Counted from the first letter of the stretch, positions 13,854 to 23,508 are shown. The stretch is 35,206 bases of DNA from an uncultured Anaeroplasma sp. (GCA_945919465.1 CAMEJG010000020.1:1-35206), one strand, 5' to 3'. The notes: generated by a model not told the origin, from the letters alone. Numbers and translations are program-made.

Positions 13854-16028
13854 ATGAAAAAGAAAATAACACCTTATTTATTTTTAGGAATTTCAATTTT
13901 AACTTTAGCTTCGTGTCAACAAATAAATCCATCTATTAATCATAGTGAAAAAACAAAAACTAATATTTCTTCTACTATTTTAGCAGAACCTTCTACAAAT
14001 AATACTTCTCAAGGTAGTTCAACTTCTACACCTTCAAATGAAAGTACTTCTACAAATGTAGCTGTTAGTACACCAACAAGTGTACCTACATCTTTACCAA
14101 CAAGTACGCCAAGTAGTAATCCTACAAGTGCACCAACAAGTACGCCAAGTAATAATCCTACAAGCGCACCTACAAGTACTTCTACTAGTGTACCTACAAG
14201 CACTCCTACAAGTACTCCTACAAGTGTACCTACTAGTACTCCAACAAATACGATAACTAGCAATACTTCTAATCCTTCTACAAGTATAGCTACAAGTAGT
14301 CCTATTACTACAACAATTAAACCTACAAGCACTCCAACTAGTGCACCTACAAGTACTCCTACAACTACAAAAACAAGTAATACATCTAATACAACTACAA
14401 GTACTTTTGTTCCTGTAGAAACAGAAATTAAGCTTGTTGAAAATGGAGATTATGGAAATAGCTGTTATGGAATATTTACTCCAATAATTAATAACGAAAA
14501 CTCTACTGATTATATAGTTAGGTATAAAAAAGAAAATACTAGTAATTTTATCACTATAGATAGTGAGTTAATAAGAAAAGAGGGAGAAAATATTCGTTAT
14601 GATATTGTAGGATTAGAAAAAGGAAATTATACAATTAGAATTGAAGCTTCTAATAGTGTTTATAAGGAATATAATACTACAATAGCTGAATATGATAAAT
14701 CTGGGTATGCACATTTTAATTATACAAATGGTGTAGGAGCATATAAGGATTCTGGATTAATAAAAGATAATACTAATATAGTTTATGTAACTGATTCAAA
14801 TAAAAATACCGTAAAGGCAACAATTAATGGTAAAGAATATACAGGATTAACTAATATATTAGTTGCTCAAAAGGATTCTAAAGTTCCATTAAATATAAGA
14901 ATAATAGGTTCAATAAACACCGCTCAATGGAATAAAAAAACTTATTCAGCTGCAGGAAGTACTGAAGAAAGAAGAAATCAGCTTGAAAGTCATATTAAAG
15001 CTACTACTGATAAAACAAATTGGTCAAGTGGAAAATTAGATCAAAAATATATTATTAGTAAAGGCATTAATAGTATGTCAAATGATATAAATAATGGTAT
15101 TACTGTACTTAATGGATTAACTAATTACATCAAATATAGCTCATCTGATAAGGAATATGATTCTTATTTTAATGATTTAGATGTTAAGGATGCTTCTAAT
15201 ATCACTATAGAAGGTATTGGAAGTGATGCTAAAATCTTCCAATGGGGCTTTACATTTAGCAAATGTAATTCTATAGAGGTTAGAAATATAACATTCAGTG
15301 ATTATACTGAGGATGCAATAGGATTCCAAGGTGGAAGTAACTCTAATATGGATTTTGGAAATTATTGGGTTCATAATTGTGTTTTTAACGTTGGAGTAAA
15401 TAATTGGGATGTAACCTTTGAAAAGGATAAAGGTGATGGTGATGGAGCTACAGATTTAAAATACTGTCATAATGTTACCTTCTCTTATTTAGTATATAAT
15501 AATACTCATAAAACAAATTTGATTGGTGGAAGTGATAGTGCTTATCAATATAATATAACATTACATCATAATTATTATAATAAAGCCTCCTCTAGACTTC
15601 CTTTAGCAAGACAAGCAAATATGCATTTTTATAATAACTATTATAATAACTGTTCTACTGCTCAGGATATTAGAGCAAATGCCTTTGTATTAAGTGAAAA
15701 TAATTATTTCTATAATTGTAAAAATGCTCAAAAAGTAGTAATAAATAATACTTATACTAAAACTGTTATTAAATCTGTAAATGATTACTATGAAGGTACA
15801 TGTAATTCTCAAGCTACTAAAACTACAAGAGATGATTCTTCATTATCTGGAAACTGTAAACCTGATAATGGGGTTACAAATTATACAAATTTTGATACTA
15901 ACTCATCACTATTTTATTATGATTCAGTTAATAAAAAAACTATAGCTGATAATATGCTAGAAGCAAAAGATGTAAAAGCATTTGTTATAAAAAATGCAGG
16001 TATTTGTGGTGGAAAAGTATATAATTAA
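13854..16028 (+). CDS. Surface pectate lyase lipoprotein, PL1-like, with Pro-Thr-Ser linker
   Basis: The 724-residue protein opens with a type II signal peptide (lipobox LTLASC, C21). Residues about 45-185 are a Ser/Thr/Pro-rich linker made of PTSxPTS units that probably spans the cell wall. A short beta-sandwich-like region (about 190-280) precedes the catalytic right-handed beta-helix, about 300-690. That part has the PL1-type calcium-site region with D528, D530 and D534 in DGDGATDLKY, then THKTNLIGGSDS, and LHHNYYNKASSRLPLAR, where R581 aligns with the catalytic arginine of PelC. It would cleave demethylated pectin by beta-elimination outside the cell. The next gene encodes the pectin methylesterase that makes its substrate. 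The PL1 assignment is from motifs; another beta-helix lyase family is possible. Confidence 0.85.
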   Translation: MKKKITPYLFLGISILTLASCQQINPSINHSEKTKTNISSTILAEPSTNNTSQGSSTSTPSNESTSTNVAVSTPTSVPTSLPTSTPSSNPTSAPTSTPSNNPTSAPTSTSTSVPTSTPTSTPTSVPTSTPTNTITSNTSNPSTSIATSSPITTTIKPTSTPTSAPTSTPTTTKTSNTSNTTTSTFVPVETEIKLVENGDYGNSCYGIFTPIINNENSTDYIVRYKKENTSNFITIDSELIRKEGENIRYDIVGLEKGNYTIRIEASNSVYKEYNTTIAEYDKSGYAHFNYTNGVGAYKDSGLIKDNTNIVYVTDSNKNTVKATINGKEYTGLTNILVAQKDSKVPLNIRIIGSINTAQWNKKTYSAAGSTEERRNQLESHIKATTDKTNWSSGKLDQKYIISKGINSMSNDINNGITVLNGLTNYIKYSSSDKEYDSYFNDLDVKDASNITIEGIGSDAKIFQWGFTFSKCNSIEVRNITFSDYTEDAIGFQGGSNSNMDFGNYWVHNCVFNVGVNNWDVTFEKDKGDGDGATDLKYCHNVTFSYLVYNNTHKTNLIGGSDSAYQYNITLHHNYYNKASSRLPLARQANMHFYNNYYNNCSTAQDIRANAFVLSENNYFYNCKNAQKVVINNTYTKTVIKSVNDYYEGTCNSQATKTTRDDSSLSGNCKPDNGVTNYTNFDTNSSLFYYDSVNKKTIADNMLEAKDVKAFVIKNAGICGGKVYN
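14070..14370 (+). repeat. Low-complexity PTS-coding repeat in the pectate lyase gene
   Basis: Irregular tandem units such as CCTACAAGTGCACC and CCAACAAGTACGCC encode Pro-Thr-Ser-x. The unit is less regular than in the neighbouring gene, suggesting an older array. The repeat leaves other frames open on both strands, which are not genes. Confidence 0.8.
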
Positions 16029-16056
16029 ATATAAAAAATAATTTATTATAAAGATT

Positions 16057-16087
16057 GCTTTAGAATTTATTTCTAAAGCTTTTTTTT
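16057..16087 (+). terminator. Terminator of the pectate lyase gene
   Basis: GCTTTAGAA (16057-16065), a 5-nt loop and TTCTAAAGC (16071-16079) form a 9-bp stem followed by eight T. Confidence 0.9.
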
Positions 16088-16143
16088 ATACAAATATATT
16101 GTTTTTCTTCTATTTTTTTACTTAATCTATTTTAATAAAACGC

Positions 16144-16172
16144 TTTACTATTTTTCAAAACAATGTTATAAT
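16144..16172 (+). promoter_or_regulatory. Promoter of the pectin methylesterase gene
   Basis: TTTACT (16144-16149), a 17-bp spacer and a perfect TATAAT (16167-16172) place the start site near 16179, just upstream of the operator palindrome. Eight bases overlapping its -35 (AAAACGCT, 16137-16144) repeat one arm of that operator. Confidence 0.65.
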
Positions 16173-16186
16173 TGAAATATATTTTT

Positions 16187-16208
16187 TAAAAGCGTTTTCA
16201 AAAACGCT
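16187..16208 (+). promoter_or_regulatory. LacI/CcpA-type operator (cre-like) palindrome
   Basis: AGCGTTTTCAAAAACGCT at 16191-16208 is a perfect 18-bp palindrome. The overlapping TAAAAGCGTTTTCA (16187-16200) fits the Bacillota cre consensus TGWAANCGNTNWCA at all but one position. Sitting at about +10 to +30, it would block transcription when bound, as expected for carbon catabolite repression by CcpA or for a pectin-specific LacI-family repressor. Which of the two binds is not decided by the sequence. Confidence 0.65.
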
Positions 16209-16229
16209 AATTGAAAAAAGGAGAATAAA

Positions 16230-19200
16230 ATGAAAAAGAAAACTTTATTAGCTAGTATTGTTCTAGCTTCTGCTGCTTTATCTTTAGCAGCATGTGGACA
16301 ACCAAATCCTACAAGTGCACCTACAAGCACTCCAACTAGTGCTCCTACAAGTGCACCTACAAGCACTCCAACTAGTGCTCCTACAAGCGCACCTACAAGT
16401 ACTCCAACTAGTACTCCTACAAGTGCACCTACAAGTACTCCAACTAGTGCTCCTACAAGTGCACCTACAAGTACTCCAACTAGTACTCCTACAAGCGCAC
16501 CTACAAGTACTCCTACAACAGATCCTGTAAAAGAAACTGTAACTATTACAGCTCACTATAATCCTGGTGATGCTACATATGATAAGACAACTGAATTAGA
16601 TTTAATTGAAGATGTTTTAACTGGTACTAAATTTGCAACATTTACTGAATCTCCAACAGATGATTATAGAAACTTCTTAGGTTGGTATGAGGATGCCGAA
16701 TTTACAACACCTTTAAGATCAGCAATCACTGATGATATTGAAGTCTTTGCTAAATGGGAATCAAAAGGAACAGTGGATAAAGTATTTAGATTTGATGCAA
16801 CAAAATTAACTGATGGTGTTGGTTTAACTGGATCAATTTATAATTTCGTTTCAGCTGATCAAGGTGGTACAAGAAATAAAGCTACAATTAATGCGTTAGG
16901 AGAAGCTGTTAGTGGTAATCAACCAGTTGTTAAAAATGGTAAATTAGAGGTTAAAGCTCCTGCTGATGGAACATTATATATGGTTCTTGAAAATGGTTCA
17001 GGATCTTCTGCATCTCAATATTCTGTAACTTCAAGTGATGGAAAATATACAGATTTTGGAGTTTGTAATTTCGTTGGTAGTTCTGATGCATATACTGCAA
17101 AACGTTTCTCTATTGAATTAAAGAAGGATGTAACTTATACATTCACAAAAACTAATGGTACAATTTATGTATACGATTTATATATGAAGTGTGCTGTTGA
17201 ATTATCACCAGTAAGTAGTATTACATTAACTTCAAATGGTGTTGTCGACTATATTGAAGGATCACAATATGATGGAAGTAAGGTAAATGTTGATTTAGTT
17301 TATGAAAATAAAGCAACAGAAGCTGTAGATATGTCAAAAGTATCTATTGATACAAGTACTTTAGATATGACTAAGCCAGGAGTTCAAAAGGTTACAGTTA
17401 AGTATCCTGTTACTCAAACATTATATGGTACTACATCAACAACTGATTTAACTCAAGAATTAGAAATTAATGTTTATTCATTAGAATCATTAAAACTAGG
17501 CTTCAATTCTGTTTCTAAGGGTGCTCAAACTGTTTTAGGTGGAAATGGTACTTATGTAAATAACACTGTAAAGGTTGTTTATGGTGCTGGTGAGGCTTAT
17601 TCAAGTGCATATTTAACAGTATTTGCAGAATGCTTATTAAATACTGAAAATAAAGAATTCACTTTAGCTTCTAGTGCTTATACAATTGATGATGCTACAT
17701 CATTTACAGGTTCAGAAGTAAAAAGAACAATTACTGTTACATATACAGCTAATGGAAAAACTAAGACTGTTTCATATGATGTATATGTTGTAACTACAGC
17801 TCCAAGTGTAGTTGAGGGTGTTGTTCAAGTTGCAGTAGATCAAAAATATAATGGTACTGTTGGTGCGGTTGTTGATGGATTTAACACATTTACTTCTATC
17901 CAACAAGCTCTAGATTATTTAGAAGCTTACTCTACTTCAATTGAAGGTAAGGATATTACCTTAAAAATTGGTGAAGGTACTTATAAAGAAAAACTAGAAT
18001 TTACTATTCCTAACATGACAGTTGTTGGTGCAGGTAAAGATAAGACTATTATTGAATGGGATTCATTATATGGCTTAAAGGATGAAGGTGGCTTCATTCA
18101 TACTACAGATTCTACTCAAACTGTTGCAGTAAGAGAAAGTGCTGAAAACTTCACTATTAGTGGTGTAACAATTTCAAACTACTGGAATGATAGAACTAAA
18201 TATATTGAATCTGGAATTTATGGCGCTCAAGATGGTAAGAATGCATCTGAACATAGAGCTCTTGCAATTCTAATTCAAGCAGATAAATTCATTATGGATG
18301 ATTGTAAAGTTCTTGGTATGCAAGATACTATTGAATTATTTGCTGGTCGTCAATTAATTAAGAATACTTATATTTGTGGTACAACAGACTTCATCTTTGG
18401 TTCAAATAATACTACATTATTCCAAGGTTGTACAATTGAAGTAAAAGCTTCTGAAGATAATAAAACTGGTGGTTATATCACTGCATTTAAGGGTTGCTCA
18501 AAGGGTGCTGAGGATGCAGTTAGTGTTGGTGTAATTTTCAATGAATGTACATTTAAAGCAGAAGCTGGTGTTCCAGATGAATCAGTAGCTATTGCACGTC
18601 CTTGGGGAATTTATAGCTTTGTTGGTGTTATGAATTCTGAATTAGGTAAGTGTATTGCAAAGGGTACAACAGTAGATACTCAAAAGAACCAATATACTGC
18701 AGTTGATACAACTGTTGTTACAGCTCCAGTAGCTGGCACTACTTACTATGTAGCAGATGGAAATAACTATGTTGTTGCAAATGTTACTGAATGGGCAGCT
18801 GAAACTGTATATTATACAAGAACAGCTACTGCATCTCGTTATTATAATGGTTTAACTAAAAATGCATTTGATTTAAATATTGAACATTTACCTACAGTTA
18901 CATTCTTTGAATACAATAACACTGGTGCTGGTGCTATGACTGATGAGGAATTAGCTAAGATTGTTGCAACATATAATAATGGTACAGAAGATGTTTCTGT
19001 AAGATTAGTTTATACTTTAACTAATGAATTAGCTGAATTATTTATTGATCAACAAATGATTTTTGCTAAAGAATCTCATCCAAATGTTAAATATCAAGAT
19101 AACTGGTCAGGTGATATCGCAACAGATGTTACAGTTAATTTCTATGTAGCTGATGAATTATATACTACAGTTAATGAATGTAGTGGAAATACATTAATTC

Positions 19201-19883
19201 TTCCTGATGACCCAACAGTTGAAGGTTATTTATTTGAAGGTTGGTATGTTGATAGTCTTTATCAAACTAAGTATAATTTAGATTCTGTTCTTGAAGCTGG
19301 TACATTAAATCTATATGCTAACTTTATTGTTGCAACTTCACAAACTGATACATATTCATTAGATTTAACAGCAATTACTGCTACAAAAGATAAAGAAGCT
19401 TTAACTGCTACAACATTTGGTACAAAGAATAGCTTCTTAACAATTGTTGATTCTTCAAAGGTTACTGCAAGAGTAAAAGATGCTGCTACATATTGTATTG
19501 AAAATAAGGATGGTAACCTAAAAGTTACATTCAAGGGTACTGGTACTCTTACAATTTCTTATTGTTCTACTAGTGGTTCAAATAAATCTCGTATTAGATT
19601 AGTAGATGAAAATGGACAATATGCTTCTGCTACAACAATGGATTCTGCATTTACATATGTAGAAGCAGAAAATGCTTATGAAATAGCTGGTAGTACAGCA
19701 AAAGATATTACATTCACTATTACTTCTGCTGGTACATATACAATTGACTGTGTTTCTACAACTACAGGACGTGGTGGTAGAATCTATGCTGTATCAATGA
19801 GTGATACTTATTCAGTTGCTAGTGGAAGCGGTGATGCTGGTGTTATGCCTCTTTCTCTTCTAAAAAAAGAAGACGAAGAATAA
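16230..19883 (+). CDS. Multidomain surface pectin methylesterase lipoprotein (CE8-like)
   Basis: This 1217-residue protein starts with a type II signal (LSLAAC, C22) and a 12-residue repeat linker PTSAPTSTPTSA (about 26-98). Then come an InlB-type repeat (100-175, ending FAKW), a probable carbohydrate-binding beta-sandwich (180-318), and Ig-like domains (325-530). The pectinesterase beta-helix runs from about 534 to 870, with D699 in GMQDTI, D720 in GTTDFIFG and R790 in ARPWG, matching in order and spacing the Asp-Asp-Arg catalytic set of CE8 enzymes. A second InlB-type repeat (about 970-1030) and a C-terminal beta domain resembling 180-318 follow. The ATG follows AAAGGAGAATAAA. It removes methyl groups from pectin for the neighbouring lyase. 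Motif LGRPW is IARPW here, a mild change. Confidence 0.88.
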   Translation: MKKKTLLASIVLASAALSLAACGQPNPTSAPTSTPTSAPTSAPTSTPTSAPTSAPTSTPTSTPTSAPTSTPTSAPTSAPTSTPTSTPTSAPTSTPTTDPVKETVTITAHYNPGDATYDKTTELDLIEDVLTGTKFATFTESPTDDYRNFLGWYEDAEFTTPLRSAITDDIEVFAKWESKGTVDKVFRFDATKLTDGVGLTGSIYNFVSADQGGTRNKATINALGEAVSGNQPVVKNGKLEVKAPADGTLYMVLENGSGSSASQYSVTSSDGKYTDFGVCNFVGSSDAYTAKRFSIELKKDVTYTFTKTNGTIYVYDLYMKCAVELSPVSSITLTSNGVVDYIEGSQYDGSKVNVDLVYENKATEAVDMSKVSIDTSTLDMTKPGVQKVTVKYPVTQTLYGTTSTTDLTQELEINVYSLESLKLGFNSVSKGAQTVLGGNGTYVNNTVKVVYGAGEAYSSAYLTVFAECLLNTENKEFTLASSAYTIDDATSFTGSEVKRTITVTYTANGKTKTVSYDVYVVTTAPSVVEGVVQVAVDQKYNGTVGAVVDGFNTFTSIQQALDYLEAYSTSIEGKDITLKIGEGTYKEKLEFTIPNMTVVGAGKDKTIIEWDSLYGLKDEGGFIHTTDSTQTVAVRESAENFTISGVTISNYWNDRTKYIESGIYGAQDGKNASEHRALAILIQADKFIMDDCKVLGMQDTIELFAGRQLIKNTYICGTTDFIFGSNNTTLFQGCTIEVKASEDNKTGGYITAFKGCSKGAEDAVSVGVIFNECTFKAEAGVPDESVAIARPWGIYSFVGVMNSELGKCIAKGTTVDTQKNQYTAVDTTVVTAPVAGTTYYVADGNNYVVANVTEWAAETVYYTRTATASRYYNGLTKNAFDLNIEHLPTVTFFEYNNTGAGAMTDEELAKIVATYNNGTEDVSVRLVYTLTNELAELFIDQQMIFAKESHPNVKYQDNWSGDIATDVTVNFYVADELYTTVNECSGNTLILPDDPTVEGYLFEGWYVDSLYQTKYNLDSVLEAGTLNLYANFIVATSQTDTYSLDLTAITATKDKEALTATTFGTKNSFLTIVDSSKVTARVKDAATYCIENKDGNLKVTFKGTGTLTISYCSTSGSNKSRIRLVDENGQYASATTMDSAFTYVEAENAYEIAGSTAKDITFTITSAGTYTIDCVSTTTGRGGRIYAVSMSDTYSVASGSGDAGVMPLSLLKKEDEE
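16308..16520 (+). repeat. 36-bp tandem repeat coding PTSAPTSTPTSA
   Basis: Nearly identical 36-bp units, about six in a row with small G/A, C/T or GCT/ACT differences, encode twelve residues each. The near identity at third positions suggests recent expansion, and copy number is likely variable between strains. Related units occur in the preceding pectate lyase gene. Confidence 0.9.
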
Positions 19884-20092: not shown

Positions 20093-21139
20093 TTAACCTA
20101 ACATTACCTTTAAGAAATCACTATATTCAGTTGTATCTGGTAAACTAGGTAATTTTTCATTATTAGTTACATTTAAGTTTAAAACTAATTTTGTATCTTT
20201 TACAGTTACTTGATTTGGATAATATGATTGCTTTAAGAAGTTATTTAATGCATTTGAAGCATCAAGTGATAAGCCAACAACCTCTAAAGTTTCAACATTT
20301 ATCTTAGTTTTAACTTCAGCAACAACATTTTCATAGCTTTCCTTAACTGGAGCTAATTCAGCAGGTAATGACTCTAATACTGATTTTAATGCTTCAGAAA
20401 TATCACTTGTAATACTGAATTCAATTTCATTATTAGAAGCAGAAGTAATCTTTAATGAATTTTCTTCACAGAAAGCATCAAATTCATTACTATCAATCAT
20501 TTGTTGAAAATTATCAATATAGCTTGAATTAAAAATATCTTCAAAATTAATTTCAGGTAATAATAAACCTAATTTTTCAAATGAAAAATAATATTTTCCA
20601 TCAGTTCCTAATTTTTGAGTTTCTTGATATTGAGGTAATCCTTGATAATCAAAATATAAGTTTTTATCATCATTAAATAAATTAAACTTGGTATTAAAAC
20701 TATTGTCATCATCAATAGGATTTGAACCAGTATTATATTTTGTTTCATAATCTAGTGATATACCATTTTTAGAATAAATCTTAAATGCAGAAACTAAATC
20801 TGAGAATGTGATATCTTCAACTGGTTCAGCTAATTCTTCCATTGAAATATATGTTTCTGAACTTATTTTTCCATATGCTTTTGAATAATTTGAATCATCA
20901 ATCTTAGTATCATAAGATACTTCAGCTGAAACTGTAACCTTTGATGAAAAAGAAGTTTTAGCTTCTGGTTTTTTCTTACTTAATGCTACAACAACTTCCT
21001 TAATTTTTGCACTATCATCTGTTTCCTCAACAACAAATGTCTCACCTGCTTCATTTGTTAATTCTACTGGTGTACTACTACAACTAGATAAAACTAAAAT
21101 TCCTGATAAACCTATAATAGATAATAATCTTTTTTTCAT
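20093..21139 (-). CDS. Uncharacterised lipoprotein
   Basis: I do not recognise the function of this 348-residue protein. It begins MKKRLLSIIGLSGILVLSSC, a type II signal peptide with the lipobox cysteine at C20, so it should be lipid-anchored on the outer face of the membrane. The rest is rich in Lys, Glu, Ser and Asn, with alternating strands ending in KDTKLVLNLNVTNNEKLP, which suggests a beta-rich sensor or binding fold. An in-frame upstream start at 21187 is rejected because GGAAAGATATT precedes the ATG at 21139 and the signal peptide begins there. It has its own strong promoter and is followed by the structured element at 19955-20081. Confidence 0.75.
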   Translation of the reverse strand: MKKRLLSIIGLSGILVLSSCSSTPVELTNEAGETFVVEETDDSAKIKEVVVALSKKKPEAKTSFSSKVTVSAEVSYDTKIDDSNYSKAYGKISSETYISMEELAEPVEDITFSDLVSAFKIYSKNGISLDYETKYNTGSNPIDDDNSFNTKFNLFNDDKNLYFDYQGLPQYQETQKLGTDGKYYFSFEKLGLLLPEINFEDIFNSSYIDNFQQMIDSNEFDAFCEENSLKITSASNNEIEFSITSDISEALKSVLESLPAELAPVKESYENVVAEVKTKINVETLEVVGLSLDASNALNNFLKQSYYPNQVTVKDTKLVLNLNVTNNEKLPSLPDTTEYSDFLKVMLG

Positions 21140-21169
21140 AATATCTTTCCTTTCCTTTTTATAAAAATA

Positions 21170-21198
21170 ATTATATATTCTTATCATTAATTTATCAA
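21170..21198 (-). promoter_or_regulatory. Strong sigma-A promoter of the lipoprotein gene
   Basis: On the minus strand TTGATA (21198-21193), a 17-bp spacer and TATAAT (21175-21170) lie 30 bp before the start codon. Confidence 0.7.
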
Positions 21199-21216: not shown

Positions 21217-21245
21217 ACAAAAATAATATCATTCTTGACATTATT
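21217..21245 (-). terminator. Terminator of the DUF1538-PII operon
   Basis: On the minus strand AATAATGTC and GATATTATT form a 9-bp stem with one G-U pair and a 6-nt loop, followed by TTTTTG. It overlaps the stop codon of the second PII-like gene. Confidence 0.6.
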
Positions 21246-21567
21246 GTTTACTTATTTTTTTATTATTAAGCAATGCCTCATCAACAGGTAAAGTAAATGC
21301 AATTCCTTGACCTTTTGAATCTAATCCTACCTTCTTATATACTGCATGTAAAATTTGATCTTTAATTGTTTTTTCTACTAATACTAATACTATTTCTTTT
21401 TCAGGATGAATAGTCATATGAATAATTTCCTCAGCTTCCTGTCTTGCTGTACCACGAGCATTAATAATAGTACCACCACGTGCTCCACATTCTCTAGCTG
21501 CAGACATAACCTCTTCAGCAAATCCTGAATTTACAATACATACTATTAATTCATAATCATTTTGCAT
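21241..21567 (-). CDS. PII-like (GlnB-fold) signalling protein, second copy
   Basis: This 108-residue protein has a PII-type beta-alpha-beta core: YELIVCIVNSGFAEEVMSAA, then ECGARGGTIINARGTA, then IHPEKEIVLVLVEKTIKDQI and the strand GIAFTLPVDEAL. The PEKEIV segment and the glycine-rich loop after the first helix are typical of PII-like proteins paired with DUF1538 membrane proteins. The uridylylation-type T-loop tyrosine of classical GlnB is absent. PII proteins usually bind adenine nucleotides and gate a transporter or enzyme. Its ATG overlaps the upstream PII stop (TAATG), so the two are made together. Ligand and partner are inferred. Confidence 0.8.
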   Translation of the reverse strand: MQNDYELIVCIVNSGFAEEVMSAARECGARGGTIINARGTARQEAEEIIHMTIHPEKEIVLVLVEKTIKDQILHAVYKKVGLDSKGQGIAFTLPVDEALLNNKKISKQ

Positions 21568-21941
21568 TATTCAACCTCCATATTAGTTAAAAATTGATAT
21601 ACCATTTTACCAATAACACTAGATAAAGATACCGTAAAAGCAATACCAGAGGCATGCTTTAGCTTAAAATACTTATCCTCAAAAGAATTTAAAATTTCTT
21701 TTATTTTATCTTCCTCAACAATACTTACAATTATCGCTTTTTCAGGATTACTAAAACCTAAAATGCCTTGAATTTCAGAAGGAGCAGTACCCCTTCCATA
21801 TAAAACAGTTTGAAAATTAGTACCAAATCCTTCTAAAACCCCTAAATAAAAATCACATTTATTTCTTTCAACTATAGTAAATAATGCTTTAAGCTTCTTT
21901 GGAGCAGTTAATCTATTCTCTTTTTCCTTTCGATTTGCCAT
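21567..21941 (-). CDS. PII-like (GlnB-fold) signalling protein, first copy
   Basis: The 124-residue protein starts with a charged tail (MANRKEKENRLTAPKKLKAL). It then shows a diverged PII core: LFTIVERNKCDFYLGVLEGF, VLYGRGTAPSEIQGILGF, NPEKAIIVSIVEEDKIKEIL and GIAFTVSLSSVIG. It shares the GRGTA, (P)EKxIVxxIVE and GIAFTV pattern with the next gene, so the pair looks like an old duplication or a heteromeric complex. It sits 8 bp after the DUF1538 gene and overlaps the next gene by one base. A regulatory role on the DUF1538 membrane protein is inferred from the operon. Confidence 0.75.
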   Translation of the reverse strand: MANRKEKENRLTAPKKLKALFTIVERNKCDFYLGVLEGFGTNFQTVLYGRGTAPSEIQGILGFSNPEKAIIVSIVEEDKIKEILNSFEDKYFKLKHASGIAFTVSLSSVIGKMVYQFLTNMEVE

Positions 21942-21949
21942 TATATCAC

Positions 21950-23473
21950 CTAATTAAAATAAATAATTTGTTCATCCATAGCATCAAGAATTTTCTTTTC
22001 TCTAGCTTTAATTCTTAATCTATTAGCTAAAACTGCTTTAAAACCTAATAATTGAATCGTAATCAATGGAGTTAACGCAACCATTGAAACTACACCAAAT
22101 GCATCCTCTAATATTTTAGAATCACCCTGTAATGCTACACAAGCTCCTACCGCAAGAGGAAGAATAAATGTTGAAGTTAAGGGTCCTGAGGCAACACCAC
22201 CTGAATCAAATGCTATTGCTGTATAAACCTTAGGAATAAAAAATGATAACCCTAAAGAAATAAAATATCCTGGGATAATATAATATAAAATTGAAAAGCT
22301 AAATACTATTCTTATCATTGATAAACATATAGAAATACCTACACCAATAGATAATGCAATGAGCATTTGCTTTTTAGTTACACCACCCATTGTAACCTCT
22401 TCAACCTGATGAGTTAATACATGTACTGCAGGCTCTGCAAGTACTACAACTAATCCTAAAACAAAACCAATTATAATTAACCAAATTGGAGAAATATTAG
22501 CTAAGCTTTCACCAATTTTAAAACCAACTGGCATATAACCAATCTGGGCTGCTGTTAAAAATAATACTAAACCAACTAATGTATATAAAATACCAATACC
22601 AATAGTTAATAGCTTTTGCTTAGGTAGATGAATAAATATAAAATTAATAATTATAAAGCATCCCACTATTAATGCTAATGCTAAAGATACTTCCTTTAAT
22701 GAATGTAATAATTTATTGAATATTGCATTTACTAATGGTTCTGTTATTTCATAATTAATTTCTGGAAAAATATTACCATTAATTCCCAAAGATAATAATA
22801 AAACAACAATAATTGGACCAATTGAACATAATGCAATCAAACCAAAGCTATTTTCCTTTGATTCTCTACCACCAATTGTTTGTGCAATACCTAAGCCTAA
22901 TGCCATAATAAAAGGAACAGTAATTGGTCCTGTAGTAACACCACCAGAATCATAAGAAAGTGCTAAAAAACCGCCATTTCCATTATTTATAGCTAATGCT
23001 GATAATGCAAACATAATTAAATAAAAAAATAATAATCTTGAAGATAAATCTTTTTTAAAAATAATTTTCATTACACCTAGTAATAAAAATATTCCTACTC
23101 CTACTCCAACACATATTATTAATATTGTTGGATTAATAACTGATGATACCTGTGTTGCAAGAACTGATAAATCAGGCTCCGCAACTGTAATAAGTAATCC
23201 CATAATAAAACATATTATGAGAACTATTTTTATTTTTTTAGTTTTTATTAAGGAAGATCCTATTTTTTCTCCCATTGGCCCCATAGCCATATCAGCACCT
23301 AGGCTAAATAAAGCTATACCTAAAATTAAAACAACAGCAGAAATAGAAAATGTAACTATTTCTGTTGTTGTTAAATTTAATAACGGAGTGAATGATAATA
23401 TAATTACTATTAATGTAATTGGTAAAACTGAAAAAATTGCTTCCTTTAATTTTTGCCATAATTCATTTAACAT
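21950..23473 (-). CDS. DUF1538 integral membrane protein with internal duplication
   Basis: The 507-residue protein has about 12 hydrophobic helices and belongs to the DUF1538 family by recalled features. The two halves repeat the same landmarks: AEPDLSVLATQV and AEPAVHVLTHQV, then DSGGVTTGPITVPFI (from D175) and DSGGVASGPLTSTFI (from D423). This is the sort of two-fold repeat seen in secondary transporters, with conserved acid and Ser-Gly-Gly groups lining a likely path. The substrate is unknown. Translation starts at an ATG behind TGGAGGGATTAT, 35 bp after gyrA. Two PII-like genes follow in the operon and probably gate it. A weak -10 (TATAAT) lies in the gyrA-DUF1538 gap. Confidence 0.8.
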   Translation of the reverse strand: MLNELWQKLKEAIFSVLPITLIVIILSFTPLLNLTTTEIVTFSISAVVLILGIALFSLGADMAMGPMGEKIGSSLIKTKKIKIVLIICFIMGLLITVAEPDLSVLATQVSSVINPTILIICVGVGVGIFLLLGVMKIIFKKDLSSRLLFFYLIMFALSALAINNGNGGFLALSYDSGGVTTGPITVPFIMALGLGIAQTIGGRESKENSFGLIALCSIGPIIVVLLLSLGINGNIFPEINYEITEPLVNAIFNKLLHSLKEVSLALALIVGCFIIINFIFIHLPKQKLLTIGIGILYTLVGLVLFLTAAQIGYMPVGFKIGESLANISPIWLIIIGFVLGLVVVLAEPAVHVLTHQVEEVTMGGVTKKQMLIALSIGVGISICLSMIRIVFSFSILYYIIPGYFISLGLSFFIPKVYTAIAFDSGGVASGPLTSTFILPLAVGACVALQGDSKILEDAFGVVSMVALTPLITIQLLGFKAVLANRLRIKAREKKILDAMDEQIIYFN

Positions 23474-23508
23474 ATAATCCCTCCATTAAATATATTATAT
23501 GAATTATT

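Follow-up and report, generated by a model that had tools for sequence, protein, structure and literature searches.

PII proteins have been studied mostly with regard to nitrogen and carbon. Among the described systems closest to the locus reported here, GlnK docks in AmtB, and the PII-like protein SbtB, which binds adenyl nucleotides, docks on the inverted-repeat transporter SbtA by inserting its T-loop into the transporter's cleft (PMC8352866). The PII-NG gene has moreover been placed beside the proton-driven cation antiporter CzcABC (PMC7726332, citing Sant'Anna 2009). The DUF1538 membrane proteins are represented in the literature that we found by one assayed pair, UmpAB of Halomonas zhaodongensis, which as a heterodimer acts as a Na+(Li+,K+)/H+ antiporter in E. 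coli KNabc and confers alkali resistance on this strain; the paper describing it is silent on topology and inversion, and does not mention PII (PMC5484666). DUF1538 and UmpAB are thus already known, and databases label the neighbouring genes "P-II family nitrogen regulator"; in the open-access literature, to which our search was confined, we found no paper linking DUF1538 and PII. The DUF1538-PII module described below adds to a known kind of system, the PII-transporter pair.

The stretch of DNA analysed here (the window) comprises 35,206 nucleotides from an uncultured Anaeroplasma sp. (GCA_945919465.1, CAMEJG010000020.1:1-35206). The open reading frames on its minus strand bear out the gene order given in the initial annotation, that is, a DUF1538 gene followed by two overlapping genes for PII-like proteins, here called PII-A and PII-B (Table 1). 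The DUF1538 and PII-A genes are separated by 8 bases, the two PII genes overlap by 1 base, and 35 bases lie between the end of gyrA and the start of the DUF1538 gene; the wider surroundings hold dnaA, dnaN, recF, gyrB and gyrA (the last two identified by eye from translations). On the 3' side of the PII genes, also on the minus strand, lies a 364-aa lipoprotein-like ORF (20093-21187) with no Pfam match above cut-off and with a strong promoter-like TTGATA-17-TATAAT near its start. Both immediate neighbours, gyrA and this ORF, are uninformative, and the gene context of the window gave no hint of a substrate. At 13854-19883 a pectin-degrading pair adjoins the replication genes; it consists of a pectate lyase-like protein and a pectinesterase lipoprotein of 1217 aa, the linker of which is a long PTSTPTSAP repeat. 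A profile search of the window's own genome returned no second DUF1538 and no further P-II match at E <= 1; since PII-A itself escaped this search, another very diverged PII could have been missed.

Table 1. Features of the DUF1538-PII module (positions counted from the first nucleotide of the window).
Feature	Position	Strand	Basis and remarks
PII-B, PII-like protein	21241..21567	-	108 aa; PF00543 (P-II) 31.6 bits, above the 25-bit cut-off
PII-B T-loop region GTARQEAEEIIHMTIHPEK	21397..21453	-	no tyrosine; alignment to E. coli GlnB
PII-A, diverged PII-like protein	21567..21941	-	124 aa; PF00543 17.7 bits, below the 25-bit cut-off
PII-A T-loop region GTAPSEIQGILGFSNPEK	21738..21791	-	no tyrosine; alignment to E. 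coli GlnB
DUF1538 tandem-repeat membrane protein	21950..23473	-	507 aa; predicted cation/proton antiporter; PF07556 415 bits (cut-off 22.6), two stretches
C-terminal DUF1538 half	22040..22669	-	PF07556 223.4 bits; counterpart of second gene in split pairs; K/R mainly in odd loops, predicted inverted
DSGGVASGP motif, C-half	22181..22207	-	D423 invariant (51 sequences)
AEPAVHVLTHQV motif, C-half	22403..22438	-	51-sequence alignment
N-terminal DUF1538 half	22787..23419	-	PF07556 204.6 bits; counterpart of first gene in split pairs; K/R mainly in even loops
DSGGVTTGP motif, N-half	22925..22951	-	helix break in model
AEPDLSVLATQV motif, N-half	23147..23182	-	short half-helix in model, residues 100-108
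Shine-Dalgarno-like GGAGGG ahead of DUF1538 gene	23479..23484	-	sequence

The locus resembles SbtA-SbtB in that a (here predicted) inverted-repeat transporter shares an operon with a PII-like protein (PMC8352866), but the transporter belongs to another family, the neighbour of the window PIIs is DUF1538 and not an SbtA-type bicarbonate transporter, and the CGPxGC C-terminus is missing from the window PIIs. It resembles PII-NG in that a non-nitrogen PII gene adjoins what would be a proton-driven cation antiporter; however, PII-NG accompanies heavy-metal RND pumps of Proteobacteria (PMC7726332), whereas the window type accompanies DUF1538 in bacteria and archaea, and no RND pump of the CzcABC/CusA type stands beside the window genes, the neighbours of which are gyrA and the lipoprotein-like ORF. 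PII-B matches the PG0541-type NCBIfam profile weakly (E = 0.089, 12.8 bits). UmpAB falls into the same Pfam family as the window protein, and each of its two proteins has a counterpart in one half of that protein; unlike UmpAB, the window has one fused chain and two PII genes. We consider it probable, by analogy with the control of SbtA by SbtB and with GlnK in AmtB, that the module is a UmpAB-type cation/proton antiporter with dedicated PII-like sensors gating transport.

The mirrored AEP and DSGGV motifs reported for the two halves of the DUF1538 protein are indeed present (AEPDLSVLATQV and AEPAVHVLTHQV; DSGGVTTGP and DSGGVASGP). In an alignment of 51 sequences, E99, P100 and Q108 of the N-half AEP motif and D175 of DSGGVTTGP are invariant, as are A346, E347, P348 and A349 of the C-half AEP motif, where Q356 is kept in at least 90% of sequences; D175 is a candidate ion or proton site. 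An AlphaFold2 model built from this alignment (mean pLDDT 91.5, pTM 0.89) places the invariant E-P and D residues in or beside an AEP half-helix and a broken D-S-G-G helix in each half, and this arrangement would, if the model is right, be typical of ion-coupled transporters. The model and the charge pattern are better fitted by a predicted topology in which each half has seven membrane segments, with a break at DSGG in one of them, and a re-entrant AEP helix, than by the 12 plain helices counted earlier. Fold searches with the full-length 507-residue model, both halves together, gave no Foldseek match in the PDB at E <= 0.001 and no VIA-align Z >= 5 among 997 Foldseek-ranked chains, and sequence comparison found no convincing relative of DUF1538 in the PDB; for so long a model these results fall short of proof that the fold is new.

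The earlier statement that the substrate is undescribed proved too strong, since Na+(Li+,K+)/H+ antiport has been demonstrated for UmpAB, a DUF1538 pair (PMC5484666). The window protein scores 167.9 and 128.9 bits with the NCBIfam profiles for UmpA and UmpB (NF041627 and NF041628; cut-offs 490 and 500), and by these scores it belongs to the same family as UmpA and UmpB but is not an equivalog; as it lies far below both cut-offs, its substrate may differ. The module could then be a PII-gated transporter of bicarbonate, ammonium or an organic anion, with UmpAB as a side branch, a reading that draws on this distance, on the single assayed pair and on the bicarbonate (SbtA) and ammonium (Amt) carriers among the known PII partners. 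We regard it as fairly unlikely, because fused and split lineages alike carry the AEP and D-S/A-G-G elements in each half, and because a potassium/proton antiporter gene was found to be followed by a related PII. This PII belongs to the same group and lies 33 bp behind the antiporter gene, without DUF1538 (L302:274-2106, G1254 contig 293). The antiporter is of the CPA1 type with a TrkA_C domain (PF00999 199 bits, NCBIfam 601 bits), and the genome also holds DUF1538-PII loci; the case is an independent pointer to cation/proton antiport, albeit a single one.

The two halves differ in the distribution of positive charges (K+R bias, counted over loops with borders taken from the AlphaFold2 model). 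In all 123 fused homologues, the N-half carries K/R mainly in even loops (mean bias +8.55) and the C-half mainly in odd loops (mean bias -9.95). In split pairs the first genes show a mean bias of +3.64 (98% positive, range -1 to 12) and the second genes one of -7.68 (100% negative, range -20 to -2), whereas six solitary DUF1538 proteins centre near zero, with a range (-4 to +2) that overlaps the edges of both. Hence, the halves are predicted to be antiparallel, so that different loops would face the cytosol, and the near-absence of bias in the solitary genes suggests a dual-topology origin of the family. The DUF606, EmrE and Fluc proteins are smaller than the DUF1538 proteins, and to our knowledge they have no PII partner. 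Like DUF1538, they form a series of solitary, oppositely paired and fused proteins with matching charge bias (PMC3962082, PMC3755343), and for DUF606 the matching signature of a dual-topology ancestor has been described (PMC3962082). The DUF1538 series would be a new case in which to study the origins of inverted-repeat transporters.

The association of DUF1538 with PII was followed in loci sampled from the window's relatives, its phylum and its class, from plasmids, from named genomes (scanned by profile search with the C-half alignment), from Pseudomonadota, and from one phylum of methanogens and one of Clostridia. The window genes were the starting point of the detection profiles, and part of the loci are the top-scoring ones; since the sample is not strictly random, divergent DUF1538 proteins were added, and these carry PII too. 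In this large but not strictly random sample, cleared of duplicates and of loci truncated at a contig end, 259 of 262 distinct DUF1538 loci have a PII gene as same-strand neighbour, in nearly every case immediately downstream. The loci span Bacilli, Clostridia, Pseudomonadota, methanogens and other phyla; the DUF1538 pairs of the Pseudomonadota sample have a single PII in this downstream position. An arrangement conserved across phyla is not a matter of chance, and the functional coupling proposed in the initial annotation, which frequent DUF1538 loci devoid of PII would have contradicted, is thus upheld. Of the three loci that deviate, L218 holds only a fragment of DUF1538, and L250 has its PII about 2.7 kb off with a TnpB-like ORF in between (a DUF1538 pair so separated from its PII is given as L299:3757-8280); the sole clear absence is L200, a DUF1538 pair without PII. 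At L298:8764-10297 a clear DUF1538 pair stands without PII, in a genome whose second pair, with PII (L201), could serve it. No natural DUF1538-PII fusion occurs among the sampled loci.

The same association was seen at the level of genomes. Among 199 genomes of the Clostridia phylum, a DUF1538-type PII is present in 66 of the 67 with DUF1538 and in none of the 132 without, at a threshold (E < 1e-20) chosen post hoc within a gap in the scores between 1.3e-24 and 1.9e-18; the 67th genome holds merely a stop-riddled DUF1538 remnant. Fisher's test gives p = 1.4e-52, a value uncorrected for the relatedness of the genomes and hence merely illustrative. PIIs of this type are also met apart from DUF1538. 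At L300:420-3550 a pntB-like transhydrogenase ORF has downstream of it a PII very near the DUF1538 type (155.7 bits with the A5 profile), which may be a copy of the PII from a DUF1538 locus elsewhere in its genome, and at L301 a DUF1538-type PII without a DUF1538 neighbour lies near an ArsP permease. On a Lachnospiraceae MAG contig (L104:5730-7666) both DUF1538 and PII-PII are apparently frameshifted, by sequencing error or decay.

The two window PIIs are only 22% identical to each other, and in fused PII-PII proteins it is the first domain that is the homologue of PII-A. The GRGTA motif, described as common to both, is carried by PII-A alone, PII-B reading NARGTA, while the claim that the T-loop tyrosine is lacking was confirmed by alignment to E. 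coli GlnB, in which the equivalent of Y51 is missing from both proteins. The assumed PII fold finds support in the fused PII-PII homologue L113, for which the model shows a pair of ferredoxin-like domains (pLDDT 80, pTM 0.78, loops of low confidence) with GlnK structures as the best PDB matches (probability 1.00); GlnB and GlnK, the partners of AmtB, share this fold, and beyond general PII proteins the PDB holds no solved close relatives of the DUF1538-linked PIIs. In GlnB, residues K90, R101, R103 and Q39 bind ATP and 2-oxoglutarate. When 311 PII domains (single, A and B) were aligned with E. coli GlnB, K90 was found replaced by I, V or L (mostly I), R101 by G and Q39 by G or A, and R103 had no consensus. 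Thus, unlike GlnB and GlnK, the window PIIs have lost the phosphate-binding K90, R101 and R103, together with Q39 and the T-loop tyrosine, and classical sensing of MgATP and 2-oxoglutarate by them appears unlikely from sequence.

The loss of the nucleotide phosphate site and the degeneracy of PII-A could also mean that the PIIs serve assembly or stability, or act in signalling to other targets, their adjacency to DUF1538 reflecting merely co-expression. UmpAB transports in E. coli without PII, so PII is not needed for activity; this would suit such a role and fits a regulator as well, although it shows no regulation. We deem non-gating PIIs improbable given the near-obligate pairing across bacteria and archaea, a T-loop that is only a little shorter than that of GlnB (21-22 versus 25 residues), and the direct binding by which well-studied PII-transporter neighbours work (PMC8352866 and general knowledge).

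If the PIIs do gate the antiporter, the identity of their ligand is the next question. The equivalents of T29, G37, G87 and G89 are retained in most single and B PIIs. Because the single, A and B sets share one list with some wrong labels, the percentages are approximate: T29 is kept in 98% of single PIIs, 94% of B domains and 53% of A domains, and G37 in 83% of B domains and throughout the single and A domains. Among the mislabelled rows, the window PII-A appears once as a single PII, since L002 is this locus cut shorter, and L082_A probably does not belong to the DUF1538-type PIIs. Opposite K58 of GlnB most domains have K or R, but this column adjoins an alignment gap and was given no weight. 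A variant of the gating model, differing in the ligand alone, has the PIIs sense a metal or a cyclic dinucleotide, like CutA or PstA, as the loss of K90, R101 and R103 and a histidine after the last strand of many single PIIs might indicate; it seems to us rather unlikely, for this histidine is missing from both window PIIs, and the retained T29, G37, G87 and G89 speak against it.

With regard to the relation between the two sensors, the A domains at 113 loci are less conserved than the B domains (mean identity approximately 25% versus 36%), and B is closer than A to the single PIIs in roughly 96.5% of these loci. Hence, the original sensor appears to be represented by PII-B, with PII-A as its diverged partner. 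In a PII tree with long branches (118 columns), built on the list with the mislabelled rows, the single, A and B labels cluster strongly (14 changes versus a shuffled mean of 45.7) but do not form the three clades expected of a single clean A/B duplication; at this resolution A and B may have split once or several times.

In the gating model that we favour, the two antiparallel DUF1538 halves would jointly form the transport path, with the AEP half-helix and the D-S/A-G-G helix break of each half as the likely ion and proton sites. The soluble PII-like sensors would dock on the cytosolic face, probably via the T-loop, and their small-ligand state would turn transport down or up; the ligand would more likely be an adenyl nucleotide, bound at the retained T29/G37/G87/G89 site, than MgATP with 2-oxoglutarate. 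The linkage suggests that many bacteria and archaea control a DUF1538 ion pump via a seemingly undescribed PII-like sensor. With a dedicated PII beside nearly all sampled DUF1538 loci, of bacteria as well as methanogens, the reach of PII control would widen to cell pH and Na+/K+ balance, and the gap left by the UmpAB study of 2017 with regard to control of the antiporter would be filled. Only tentatively do we go further and propose a widespread, unrecognised PII class that senses adenylates and directly gates Na+/K+-proton antiport in bacteria and archaea, through an antiporter whose fold is absent from the PDB and which arose from a dual-topology homodimer via duplication and fusion, a degenerate second PII in Bacillota having created a two-input regulator.

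The initial annotation had read the match of two halves and two PIIs as a sign that each PII binds, and would control, one half. The pairing of two halves with two PII domains, often both fused, in Bacilli and mostly also in Clostridia agrees with this idea. In raw counts by locus, some of them redundant and some cut by the locus end, fused DUF1538 is accompanied by fused PII-PII at 84 loci (the commonest architecture), by two separate PII genes, as in the window, at 59 and by a single PII at 16. For pairs of DUF1538 genes the corresponding counts are 21, 10 and 77, the last of these being the second commonest architecture. Solitary DUF1538 has one PII in each of its six cases (L232 and L233 from the methanogen-phylum sample; L282, L292, L293 and L294 from the Clostridia sample). 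A 2:2 count is therefore one variant and no rule, and the idea loses its main support; antiparallel halves would moreover present different loops, and we consider one PII per half very improbable. In the gating model the sensor would instead have been duplicated in the window's lineage, with PII-B keeping ancestral features and PII-A diverging. Given this divergence, the two probably act together, either as a mixed oligomer or as two inputs on one antiporter.

We had also entertained the rule that fused DUF1538 always comes with two PII domains, which is wrong, as L162, L171, L191, L194 and others have one. Two DUF1538-PII systems lie side by side at L190, and at L283 and L288 (G1238 and G1204) the genes form tandem arrays in the order DUF1538-DUF1538-PII-DUF1538-DUF1538-PII, which is a possible route for multiplying PII copies.
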